35,502 bases of DNA, from NCBI GenBank assembly GCA_017467805.1, contig JAFUKJ010000032.1, positions 1 to 35,502 on the forward strand. The letters are read 5' to 3'. The notes below the pieces were generated by a model. It was not told the DNA's origin. It searched no databases and saw only the letters and a list, made by a program, of their open reading frames with translations. The position numbers were made by a program, and so were the translations under genes. Source of the stretch: Lachnospiraceae bacterium (GTDB lineage: Bacteria; Bacillota; Clostridia; Lachnospirales; Lachnospiraceae). The number at the start of each line of letters is the position of its first letter. Positions within the stretch are counted from its first letter, which is position 1. Of the stretch, positions 25,323 through 28,855 are shown in pieces.

Positions 25323-26294
25323 ATGCCACTTACTAACAGTCAATATGATAGCATTATCCGAGCATATGAAGAAAAACAACGAGCTTCCAGACATCGTCTG
25401 GAGGCTCATACTGAAATTGTATACAGACAAATTCCTAACTATGAGGAGCTGGACAGACAGGTTTCCCGTATTTCTATTGAACAGGGACGTAAGCTCCTTA
25501 GTGGTGACGAAAGCGCACTTCCCGAGTTGAAGAAAAAGCTTCGTGAGCTTTCTGCAAAGAAAGCTTCTCTTTTAGAACAGCATGGCTTTGCCGCAGATTA
25601 TCTGACACAGACCTACGAATGCAATGCCTGCAAGGACACAGGTTATGTGGATAATCGCAAATGCACTTGTTTCCGCAGAGCCGAAATCGACCTTATCTAC
25701 GAACAATCCAACATTAAGAATTTATTGAAAACCGAGAATTTTGACCACCTCTCCTATGATTATTATCAGGGTGAAGACCTTGAAAGATTTAGGAATGCTG
25801 TAAAAGAGTGCGAAAAATTCATAAAAAACTTTAATTCGGACTACCATAATCTGTTTTTTTATGGTACAGTAGGTACTGGTAAGTCATTCCTATCTTCATG
25901 CATTGCCAAAGAAATCATTGAGCAAGGGAAGTTAGTTATCTATTTTAGCTCTACTCAATTGTTTGATGCTTTATCAAAGAGTACCTTTGATAAGGACAGC
26001 AAGGAGGCAATGTCGGGGATTTACGAAGATATTTATGAGTGTGATTTACTGATTATTGATGACCTGGGAACAGAACTTACTAATGCATTTGTATCGTCTC
26101 AGCTTTTTTCCTGTTTAAACAACAGACATCTGCGTAAGAAATCTACGATTATTACAACGAATCTGTCATTACCAGAATTAAGAGACCGATACTCCGACAG
26201 AATCTTTTCCCGCATTACAAGCAATTATGGGATATGCAAACTATCCGGTAAAGATATCCGGATACAGAAAAAAATGTCGAACAATAGAAAGTGA
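25323..26294 (+). CDS. DnaI/DnaC-like helicase loader ATPase
   Basis: A 323-residue AAA+ protein. The N-terminal helical region (1-90) is followed by a four-Cys zinc-binding set (Cys100, 103, 114, 116). The ATPase domain has Walker A GTVGTGKS (181-188), Walker B LLIIDDLG (242-249), a sensor-like TTNLSLPEL and an Arg-rich RYSDRIFSRI. This layout matches DnaI/DnaC loaders that put the replicative helicase on DNA. The start at 25323 has AAAGG 8 nt upstream. It lies 16 bp after the DnaD-like gene and 10 bp before prs. Confidence 0.93.
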   Translation: MPLTNSQYDSIIRAYEEKQRASRHRLEAHTEIVYRQIPNYEELDRQVSRISIEQGRKLLSGDESALPELKKKLRELSAKKASLLEQHGFAADYLTQTYECNACKDTGYVDNRKCTCFRRAEIDLIYEQSNIKNLLKTENFDHLSYDYYQGEDLERFRNAVKECEKFIKNFNSDYHNLFFYGTVGTGKSFLSSCIAKEIIEQGKLVIYFSSTQLFDALSKSTFDKDSKEAMSGIYEDIYECDLLIIDDLGTELTNAFVSSQLFSCLNNRHLRKKSTIITTNLSLPELRDRYSDRIFSRITSNYGICKLSGKDIRIQKKMSNNRK

Positions 26295-26304
26295 GGATTT
26301 TCGC

Positions 26305-27501
26305 ATGCCAGTACGCGAAGAAAAAAGAAATCTTAATTCGATACCCGTTGGTTCTTTAGGAATTATTCCTTTAGAAGGTTGTAAGGCTCTCGGAGACAAG
26401 GTAGATGAATATCTTGTTAAGTGGAGAACCGAACGAGAAAGTGAGCATAAGAACAGTCTTGCATTTTCAGGCTATCAGCGTGATTCTTATATTTTGAAAA
26501 CCAAAGTACCTCGTTTCGGTACAGGTGAAGCAAAGGGTCAGATCTTAGAGTCTGTTAGAGGTGATGACCTTTACTTACTCGTTGATGTTACGAACTATAG
26601 CTTAACTTATTCTCTCTGCGGACATGACAATCATATGTCTCCAGACGATCATTATCAGGATTTGAAGAGAATTATTGCAGCTGTAGGTGGTAAGGCTAGA
26701 AGAATTACCGTTATTATGCCATTCTTATATGAAAGCCGTCAGCATAAGAGAAACTCACGTGAGTCTCTTGATTGTGCACTTGCATTACAGGAAATGGTTA
26801 AGATGGGCGTTGATAATATTATCACATTTGACGCACATGACCCTCGTGTACAGAATGCTATTCCGTTACATGGTTTTGAGACAGTGTCTCCTACTTACCA
26901 GTTCATTAAGGGACTATTAACACATGTTCAGGATCTTAAGATTGATTCATCTAATATGATGATTATCAGCCCAGATGAAGGCGGTATGAACCGTGCTATT
27001 TATATGGCAAACGTACTTGGTCTTGATATGGGTATGTTCTATAAGAGACGCGATTATACTAAGATTGTAGATGGACGTAATCCTATCGTTGCACATGAGT
27101 TCTTAGGAACAAGTGTTGAAGGCAAGGATGTTTTAATCATTGATGATATGATTTCTTCAGGCGAAAGCGTTCTTGAGGTCGCTGCCGCATTAAAGGCTAG
27201 AAAGGCTAAGAGAATTTTCGTATGTGCTACTTTCGGTTTATTCACAAGCGGACTTGAAAGCTTTGATAAGGCATACGAGGAAGGTTTGATTGACAAGGTT
27301 CTTACTACTAACCTTATTTACCAGACTCCAGAGTTATTAGAGAAGCCATACTATATCAACTGCGATATGAGTAAGTACATTGCATATATCATCGATACTT
27401 TGAATCATGATTCTTCTATCAGCGATTTATTGAATCCTATCGATAGAATCCATAGCATTGTCGAGAGATATAATAATGGCGAGTTAGAGTGCCAGAAATA
27501 A
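26305..27501 (+). CDS. prs: Ribose-phosphate pyrophosphokinase, long form
   Basis: A 398-residue protein, longer than the usual 310-320 residues. It makes PRPP from ribose 5-phosphate and ATP for nucleotide, His and Trp synthesis. The N-terminal 60 residues, including a charged DKVDEYLVKWRTERESEH stretch, are an addition. The core shows a GGKARRITVIMPFLYESRQH catalytic flexible region, DAHDPRVQNAIP and the PRPP loop VLIIDDMISSGES near 275-287. Canonical enzymes have DDIIDTAGT at the last site, so this is a divergent subgroup. GAGGA lies 8 nt before the ATG. It ends with a strong terminator. Confidence 0.88.
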   Translation: MPVREEKRNLNSIPVGSLGIIPLEGCKALGDKVDEYLVKWRTERESEHKNSLAFSGYQRDSYILKTKVPRFGTGEAKGQILESVRGDDLYLLVDVTNYSLTYSLCGHDNHMSPDDHYQDLKRIIAAVGGKARRITVIMPFLYESRQHKRNSRESLDCALALQEMVKMGVDNIITFDAHDPRVQNAIPLHGFETVSPTYQFIKGLLTHVQDLKIDSSNMMIISPDEGGMNRAIYMANVLGLDMGMFYKRRDYTKIVDGRNPIVAHEFLGTSVEGKDVLIIDDMISSGESVLEVAAALKARKAKRIFVCATFGLFTSGLESFDKAYEEGLIDKVLTTNLIYQTPELLEKPYYINCDMSKYIAYIIDTLNHDSSISDLLNPIDRIHSIVERYNNGELECQK

Positions 27502-27510
27502 GTTTTATAT

Positions 27511-27548
27511 ACGGTTACTTTCAGAAATGGAAGTAACCGTTTTCTTTT
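27511..27548 (+). terminator. Terminator of the dnaD-dnaI-prs operon
   Basis: ACGGTTACTT (27511-27520) pairs with AAGTAACCGT (27531-27540), extended by TC/GG, followed by TTTCTTTT. Confidence 0.85.
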
Positions 27549-27589
27549 GTGAATACAGGTCGACAAATTCGGGTTTGTCGACTTCTTAC

Positions 27590-27822
27590 GGCGCCCGCCC
27601 TAACAGGTTTCATTCGAAAGCTAGAGCTTCGGGCTAAGAGTTTCTAAGTACTTTTGTATATGCGTTCTCTATGTACGGAACCGGCGGATATTCGGCATCC
27701 ATGCCTCAGTTTCCGCCTACTGCCTCCGTCCAGTCGGCAGTTTCCTATGTACTCCAAAAGTACTAAGAAACTCTAACACCCTGCGCAATGCTTTCTCCAT
27801 GAAATCTGTTAGGGCTTGCGCC
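27590..27822 (+). ncRNA. Structured element copy A (candidate structured RNA)
   Basis: The base stem pairs 27590-27613 with 27799-27822 (21 of 24 positions plus one wobble). A second stem pairs AGAGTTTCT.AGTACTTTT at 27637-27655 with 27756-27774. The core at 27667-27753 folds into three small hairpins: GGCGGA/TCCGCC, GGCA-TCCA-TGCC and ACTGCC/GGCAGT, closed by GGAA/TTCC. The strand is given by the core motif shared with copy B; transcription is not shown by the sequence. Confidence 0.5.
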
Positions 27823-27859
27823 TAGGGAGTCGAATAAAAGTGGAGTTGTCATGTACACA

Positions 27860-28124
27860 GGCACTCTGTCCTGCTCTAGGAAGTGGATTATATGTTTGAA
27901 AGCAAAAGTATTGCGAAGAGTATTAGATTTGGTTAATGTTTTTTAAGTAAATAGGGAAGCGCCGCTTGGATGAAGGCGCTAGGCGTATTTGAGACATGGA
28001 TGTCGAATATACGCCGGTCCCGTAAATAAAGAACACTTAGATAAAAACATTTAGCAAATCTTTACTCGTAGCGTCTACTTTTGCGTCAAACATAAATCCT
28101 CTGGCAAGAGGAGGACAGAGTGCC
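27860..28124 (-). ncRNA. Structured element copy B (inverted, diverged copy)
   Basis: The base stem GGCACTCTGTCCT (27860-27872) pairs perfectly with AGGACAGAGTGCC (28112-28124). Long partly paired arms follow. Read on the minus strand, the core (28031-27946) matches copy A at about three of four positions, with the same hairpins: GGCGTA/TACGCC, GACA-TCCA-TGTC and AGCGCC/GGCGCT, closed by GGGA/TCCC. The arms share almost no sequence with copy A except CGCAAT.CTTT in the 3' arm. Confidence 0.5.
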
Positions 28125-28316
28125 GTCCGTTAGCCCGACAAACCCGAATTGATAGAATTGAAAACACCTTGCTTTTTATTATTGTTTATGATAAATTTAA
28201 AAAGTTGCAAAGCCTAAAAACAAGGTCACAAAGCATTGCCAATAGGCAATACTTGCAAGAATCAACTATGTTGATTCTTGTGTGAATGTACAGGCTCACT
28301 TTGTAAGTGAAATGAA

Positions 28317-28361
28317 ACCGAGTGTTCGAGACCTTCCACTCGTAAAACAAAACTAAAGGAG
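28317..28361 (+). promoter_or_regulatory. Probable preQ1 riboswitch (class I-like) of queT
   Basis: CGAGTG (28319-28324) pairs with CACTCG (28337-28342) around a loop starting TTCGAGACC. A-rich TAAAACAAAACTAAAGGAG follows and contains the queT ribosome binding site. This small stem plus A-rich tail is the layout of preQ1-I aptamers. CCTT in the loop (28332-28335) can pair with AAGG (28356-28359), which would hide the ribosome binding site. Upstream, 28236-28311 holds three further hairpins, including AAGAATCAAC/GTTGATTCTT. The class assignment is not certain; preQ1-II or III was not excluded. Confidence 0.5.
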
Positions 28362-28369
28362 AAATTATA

Positions 28370-28855
28370 ATGAAAAACAAGAAGATTCTAATGATGACGC
28401 AGGCATCTATGATTGCTGCGTTGTACGTCGTGCTTACCTTAGTCGCTAATGCTCTTGGCTTAGCCAATTACGCCATTCAGGTAAGATTCTCAGAGGCACT
28501 CACGATTCTGCCTTACTTTACCCCAGTTGCCATTCCTGGCTTATTTATCGGATGCTTACTTAGTAACATATTAACAGGATGTCCTCCTCTTGATATTGTC
28601 TTTGGAAGTCTTGCTACCTTATTAGGTGCTTCGGGTACTTATGCTCTTAGACGCCACAAGTGGTTAGCTCCTATTCCACCAATTCTTGCTAATGTGGTGA
28701 TTGTTCCCTTTGTATTAGCTTATGTGTATAAGTTCGAAGGAAGCCTTCCTTATTTTGCACTTACAGTTGGTATCGGCGAAATAATTTCCTGTGGGGTATT
28801 AGGAATGATTCTGCTCTTTGGACTTAAGAAATATGAAAATGTAATTTTTAGATAA
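28370..28855 (+). CDS. queT: QueT family queuosine-precursor transporter
   Basis: A 161-residue membrane protein with about five helices. It matches the QueT family (PF06177): a cytoplasmic N-terminus, QASMIAALYVVLTLVANALGL, the conserved VRFSEALTILPYFTP and GCLLSNILTGCPPLDIVFGSLATLLGA. It is an ECF-type substrate-binding component that imports a queuosine precursor such as preQ1, and needs the shared ECF energising module encoded elsewhere. AAAGGAG lies 8 nt before the ATG. A preQ1 riboswitch-like leader is consistent with this job. Confidence 0.93.
   Translation: MKNKKILMMTQASMIAALYVVLTLVANALGLANYAIQVRFSEALTILPYFTPVAIPGLFIGCLLSNILTGCPPLDIVFGSLATLLGASGTYALRRHKWLAPIPPILANVVIVPFVLAYVYKFEGSLPYFALTVGIGEIISCGVLGMILLFGLKKYENVIFR

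Follow-up and report, generated by a model that had tools for sequence, protein, structure and literature searches.

Two inverted copies of a branched core with compensatory base changes lie between a ribose-phosphate pyrophosphokinase gene (26227-27501, by Pfam) and queT (28370-28855, by Pfam) in a stretch of 35,502 nucleotides from a Lachnospiraceae bacterium (GCA_017467805.1, contig JAFUKJ010000032.1; hereafter the window), which raises the question of whether they have been kept as a folded RNA, as a folded DNA, or as both. A preliminary description, made from the letters of the window, had put the agreement between the copies at about three of four positions, with at least five covarying pairs. 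Both statements hold up. Alignment of 27667-27753 (copy A) with the reverse complement of 27946-28031 (copy B) gave 67 identities over 86 aligned positions with one gap, at a score of 56.0 that lies far above those of 300 shuffles (mean 14.1, maximum 22.5). On a consensus structure of 32 pairs, built from 36 family members, eight pairs are altered on both sides and still paired, 18 are identical, one is altered on one side and five are unpaired in one or both copies; across the 36 members, 31 of the 32 pairs show double-sided changes in at least one member. The hairpin loops had also been called unchanged, which is true of hairpin H2, with ATGGAT on the RNA strand (TCCA on the opposite strand) in both copies, and untrue of H1, where copy A has CTGGACG and copy B CTTGGATG. 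The structured region is wider than first described: each rod is longer than the RNA core at its tip and has several inverted-repeat arms (Table 1).

The preliminary description matched the fold to no known class and left its novelty to a comparison with Rfam, where both copies are found as TwoAYGGAY (RF01731). They score 107.2 and 87.7 bits over the full model, far above the gathering cut-off of 43, and carry the two GGA-loop hairpins of that family on an outer stem: H2 has the loop CATGGATG in both, and H1 keeps GGA while its flanking loop letters vary. In the part of the 2010 survey by Weinberg and colleagues available to us, TwoAYGGAY is rated a probable RNA, probably not cis-regulatory, with no function (PMC2864571), and it has stayed listed as a structured-RNA candidate with no function attached; Rfam enters its type as Cis-reg. 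Within the excerpts used here, CsrA binding is already proposed from motif matches (PMC4333381), and structure and stability are treated in three papers (PMC11701678, PMC7657543, PMC11661157). Titles, abstract openings and passages of the open-licence PMC literature yielded no link between TwoAYGGAY and a mobile element. The RNA class is therefore already known; that it appears to be mobile and kept as DNA, and that it tracks csrA, is new as far as our searches go. Compared with the family as listed in the excerpt of PMC2864571, the core described here is the tip of a longer, apparently mobile hairpin with terminal inverted repeats (TIRs), often in divergent pairs.

Table 1. Features of the hairpin unit and its surroundings in the window.
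Feature	Position	Strand	Basis or detail
Terminator-like hairpin following ribose-phosphate pyrophosphokinase; unit directly downstream	27511..27540	+	gene by Pfam
TIR-bounded unit, 585 bp, two hairpins inverted and divergent	27566..28150		TIR word AATTCGGGTTTGTCG
Left terminal inverted repeat	27566..27580	+	exact AATTCGGGTTTGTCG
Rod, copy A	27590..27822	-	arms 27590-27613/27799-27822 and 27637-27656/27755-27774; inverted repeats and fold
Copy A core, TwoAYGGAY RF01731	27624..27788	-	87.7 bits, full model 1-168
Copy A hairpin H2, loop CATGGATG	27683..27717	-	sequence, alignment
Copy A hairpin H1, GGA loop CTGGACG	27719..27741	-	sequence, alignment
Inter-hairpin junction, apparent degraded inner TIRs (AGTCGAATAAA, AGTTGTC)	27823..27859		compared by eye
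Rod, copy B	27860..28124	+	arms 27860-27889/28095-28124 and 27925-27943/28043-28061; inverted repeats and fold
Copy B core, TwoAYGGAY RF01731	27911..28074	+	107.2 bits, full model 1-168
Copy B hairpin H1, loop CTTGGATG	27959..27979	+	sequence, alignment
Copy B hairpin H2, loop CATGGATG	27982..28015	+	inverted repeat, alignment
Right terminal inverted repeat	28136..28150	-	exact AATTCGGGTTTGTCG

Both rods sit inside one unit whose exact inverted ends of 15 bp are of the kind that delimits MITEs, and positions 27566-28150 hold no open reading frame of 80 amino acids or more. The end word AATTCGGGTTTGTCG has 11 exact occurrences in the window's genome (G000), two of them being the ends of the unit, and its reversed control has none, even with one mismatch. 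Two further loci of this genome share these ends: L005 is a single-copy version, and in L043 the second half differs. Because the junction between the rods, with its apparently degraded inner ends, recurs at another locus of the genome (23 of 24 junction bases at L036, by eye), the divergent pair in the window appears to have moved as one unit. Inspection of the flanks by eye revealed no target duplication. The upstream gene is shared by 18 relatives, all of them without an RF01731 match close by; 17 are readable downstream of that gene with no element there, but their gene order differs, and the remaining contig ends 53 bases past the gene. Since the downstream genes differ, these relatives do not amount to a clean empty site for the window unit. 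Searches of phage and plasmid collections returned no match to it.

Several smaller observations concern these surroundings. In the window's genome, units directly follow hairpin-plus-T-run terminators at four sites (the window, L003/L043, L005 and L036; read by eye), which may reflect a preference during insertion. Contigs C16, C53 and C68 of this genome (L037, L042 and L045) start about 300-380 bp within near-identical sequence that ends in the same TIR, as contigs broken at a longer repeat would; that repeat is possibly the autonomous element. A promoter of the unit's own between the divergent copies was considered and set aside, as the single promoter-like site in 27450-28400 (against 1.9 expected in shuffles) lies outside the unit at 28158-28185. 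Overlap with a preQ1 riboswitch was likewise rejected, the match at 28314-28362 (24.6 bits, cut-off 39) also falling outside; its position directly before queT fits a divergent preQ1 riboswitch.

We then asked what the pairs themselves say about the level at which the fold is kept. A structure kept at the RNA level alone is expected to tolerate G-U pairs. In the 36 copies, G-U accounts for 15 of 1003 standard pairs (1.5%), next to 24 A-C mismatches; for the set of 100 copies (15 genomes), whose alignment was fitted to the model and whose pairing counts are thus biased toward it, the figures are 42 of 2962 pairs and 30 A-C mismatches. The outer stem and both hairpins behave alike (G-U 1.0-2.2%). 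RNA controls from the same bacterial family gave 13-17%: 40 of 299 pairs in the TPP riboswitch (26 of 30 loci fetched; a consensus of only 12 pairs, six of them variable) and 258 of 1546 in RNase P (the best 20 matches, from 24 of 40 genomes matched and none of the 40 above the Rfam cut-off). Restricting the count to variable pairs left 1.3% for TwoAYGGAY versus 9.8% and 8.3% for the TPP and RNase P controls, and single-sequence minimum-energy folds showed a smaller gap, with 3.5% in cores and 4.6% in rods versus 12.5% in TPP and 13.5% in shuffled rods. Because G-U is so much rarer than in the RNA controls, the stems seem to be kept as a DNA inverted repeat, a pattern that fits either pressure on such a repeat or arm-to-arm copying of it. 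If TwoAYGGAY is the tip of a mobile hairpin, its low G-U share offers a simple test of DNA-kept against RNA-kept structure. As for the choice that the preliminary description had posed, between an RNA and a DNA structure read by a transposase, the conserved fold stands and the DNA option is the better supported for the stems; both halves may hold, DNA for the stems and RNA for the CsrA-like loops.

Arm-to-arm copying by template switching would create compensatory stem changes without any selection, and we give it somewhat less than even odds as their source. The similar rarity of G-U pairs and A-C mismatches speaks for it, as do the copies of one genome (G268), which differ by whole stem blocks with complementarity retained; conserved loops and junction residues are left unexplained by it. 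Such copying is compatible with the other readings considered below.

Signs of movement were found in G176, a genome of another genus. There, each of the eight RNA copies examined is flanked on both sides by an end of the type ATTCGGGTGTCAAAA (at most four mismatches), the two ends being about 310 bp apart. This genome contains 57 words of that end type within one mismatch and none of the control word. Of 28 stretches, the 22 with both ends (six without two recognizable ends were excluded) were examined for target duplication in G176: at a width of 9 bp the mean match was 5.64 of 9, whereas swapped flanks gave 3.87 (permutation p = 5e-5), and at a width of 8 there was no signal (p = 0.85). These were the two widths tested, and a signal at 9 only is as expected if the true duplication length is 9. 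When six G176 sites, each with its two flanks joined, were compared with 29 genomes of that genus, two insertions proved to have empty counterparts. Five sister-species stretches align across L104 without the element (with some forty bases missing nearby in L236), and one aligns across L109, lacking 44 bases of the left flank; many other genomes matched one flank only, or both as separate pieces at various distances. Fourteen further G176 units were folded, four of which (309-311 bp) hold the core. The other ten (71, 85, 100-104, 157 and 179 bp) lack it, keep the same ends and form hairpins. The number of such tip-deleted units suggests that movement does not depend on the tip.

A search with the 18-mer TIR alone gave at least 114 stretches, of which 80 were searched with the TwoAYGGAY model. 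Thirty of the 80 contain the RNA, and the distance from TIR to core is 50-57 bases in 29 of them and 85 in the other; the stretches are titled Lachnospiraceae, Roseburia and Hespellia, among others. The core and these ends thus travel together. We therefore regard the G176 elements as very probably mobile hairpins with a TwoAYGGAY tip, and extend this reading to the window unit, which has the ends and no duplication, with somewhat less assurance. Duplication of 9 bp in G176 suggests a DDE rather than a Y1 enzyme.

An autonomous element was looked for next to the unpaired G176 ends retrieved and in 80 of the at least 114 TIR-fetched stretches, and none was found. Of two long TIR-like pairs in the 80 stretches, one (L330, 1259 bp, with four mismatches in one end) encloses an open reading frame that looks dipeptidase-like by eye, and the other (L267, 2667 bp) encloses a further open reading frame. 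Seven stretches under Muribaculum, Muribaculaceae, Chitinophaga, Gastranaerophilales and Anaerolineaceae titles (L258, L265, L272, L287, L307, L342 and L344) carry the Lachnospiraceae-type TIR, perhaps through binning contamination. Unit ends differ in other genera (G004, G268). Right feet in G268, G241, G008 and G086 have GTCCG after several hairpins, with a C-rich tail in G268, and do not resemble the TIR ends found elsewhere.

The loops tell a second story, that of a protein ligand. GGA is present in both loops of 84 of the 100 copies (15 genomes), in a single loop of 12 and in neither loop of four. H1 has the strict motif CANGGANG in 72 copies, H2 in 62 and both hairpins in 41. The loops are specific to one strand, and most are CANGGANG, the ligand motif of CsrA. 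A strict requirement for GGA is ruled out by copies that have CGA instead (CACGATG in G241, G008 and others). All four loops in the window contain GGA, and its genome encodes csrA (G000:C96:1965-2123). According to the portions consulted, the CsrA consensus is RUACARGGAUGU or (A/U)CANGGANG(U/A) (PMC6692469), two such hairpins can be bound by one CsrA dimer (PMC7366521), and the hairpins of CsrB/RsmY-type sponges expose ANGGA, the stated CsrA target (PMC7366521).

Across large genome samples, for which the scoring filters were stricter and weak matches are lost, csrA tracks the element. Of the carriers in the family sample, 44 of 45 have csrA, compared with 110 of 254 non-carriers (Fisher p = 1.7e-13; the genomes are not independent), the exception being G168, with one hit near a contig end. 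Outside the family, in the class sample, the counts are 25 of 30 carriers and 86 of 345 others (p = 2.7e-10; the genomes are related). Of these 30 carriers, 21 lie above the Rfam cut-off, and 17 of the 21 have csrA; the five of the 30 that lack it are G492, G533, G572, G590 and G632, the first three being 80-88% complete. The flagellar gene product FlhA tracks the element just as well as csrA does in the family sample (45 of 45 carriers, 110 of 254 others), so that csrA could not be separated from flagella as the correlate there. Because FlhA tracks equally and the genomes are related, the association is not proof; that the transcribed tip binds CsrA is plausible, with the chances about evenly divided.

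Taken together, these results are best explained, with a probability of roughly two in three, by a small non-autonomous, MITE-like transposon made of one or two long hairpins, the tip of which is a TwoAYGGAY RNA with a CsrA-binding role; its mobility is well supported elsewhere and less so for the window unit, and CsrA binding is the putative part. A DDE transposase supplied in trans would move the unit. Transcription from neighboring genes would let the sense-strand tip fold into a three-way junction, and its two loops, mostly C-A-N-GGA-N-G, could then occupy both RNA-binding sites of a single CsrA dimer; each transcribed copy might thereby act as a CsrA decoy or a CsrA target. In the window, two such units stand back to back, in divergent orientation, behind the terminator of the ribose-phosphate pyrophosphokinase gene and ahead of queT.

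We know of no CsrB-like sponge in these lineages. A bolder and tentative version of the same model, which we rate below an even chance, holds that a transposon family of Clostridia spreads CsrA decoys: each jump would plant a two-loop hairpin in a new transcript, copy number and site would retune the CsrA/FliW flagellar circuit, and the arms would evolve as DNA and the tip as RNA.

It is unlikely, though less so than the last alternative below, that the element is DNA throughout, with the tip serving as a folded substrate of a transposase or recombinase, the GGA loops unrelated to CsrA and the csrA link a product of ancestry or motility. Near-absence of G-U and the equal tracking of FlhA are what such an element would give. 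The tip-deleted units, with the same ends at many sites, argue that a transposase has no obvious need of the tip; the loops, moreover, match the ligand of a known protein, and the association with csrA extends beyond the window's family. Least probable of all is a host-owned structured RNA, whether small RNA or cis-regulator, that is multi-copy by chance and covaries through RNA folding alone, for although its strand-specific loops and junction residues are conserved over many genera, 31 of 32 pairs have double changes and Rfam lists it as Cis-reg, it is at odds with a G-U share about as low as that of A-C mismatches, unlike TPP and RNase P, with the TIRs, target duplication and empty sites, and with a gene context unlike the leader of one gene class. 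In that context count, 109 copies had enough flank; 14 overlap a mechanically called open reading frame, and the flanking genes of the 95 classified copies are of mixed orientation (36 -,-; 26 +,+; 22 +,-; 11 -,+), and a cis-regulatory leader was rejected on that ground.

The MITE-like transposon favored here resembles MITEs in being short and non-coding, with TIRs, target duplication (in G176), internal deletions and many dispersed copies. Six RF01731 matches, one of them cut by a contig end, were found in the window's genome, in addition to the empty sites at two G176 insertions; in the search across the bacterial family at most nine candidates were scored per genome, so that copy numbers are lower bounds, and the resulting 118-copy set leans toward the best matches. 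It differs from MITEs in its structured tip, conserved across many genera, and in that no autonomous partner was found. ERIC and REP/BIME of enterobacteria are dispersed palindromic intergenic repeats found in inverted pairs, and REP/BIME with RAYT, a comparison prompted by the inverted pairing in the window, have a GTAG-type foot and a linked Y1 transposase; the present element has, in contrast to these, TIR-type ends and, in G176, a 9-bp duplication. With CsrB/RsmY sponges, as portrayed in the passages seen of PMC7366521, it shares hairpins that expose ANGGA, but it has two loops per copy, sits on a mobile element, and its binding is putative. If TwoAYGGAY is the tip of a mobile hairpin, strong covariation alone is no proof of an RNA gene; if the tip also binds CsrA, transposons would have a route to rewire a global regulator.

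Finally, the divergent arrangement recurs beyond the window. Neighboring copies less than 500 bp apart form 14 divergent, no convergent and two tandem pairs in six genomes; the binomial value of 2.6e-7 for divergent pairing overstates the case, as G086 alone supplies six of the 14 pairs and one partner, in L070, matches weakly and in part. In six of 13 genomes, 12-mers shared between copies are concentrated in the 5′ flanks (91-221) and nearly absent from the 3′ flanks (0-4); the window's genome has 16 versus 1, five genomes have them in neither flank and G066 has them in both. In G268, all nine copies have a different hairpin, or its remnant, on the 5′ side (by eye), for which no Rfam family gave a useful score. 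This second long hairpin (L124-L131 and L027) has the ends GGACGTGGGAGCTGGC and GCCAGCTCCCACTGTGTATCGAAA, and its tip is deleted in L129.
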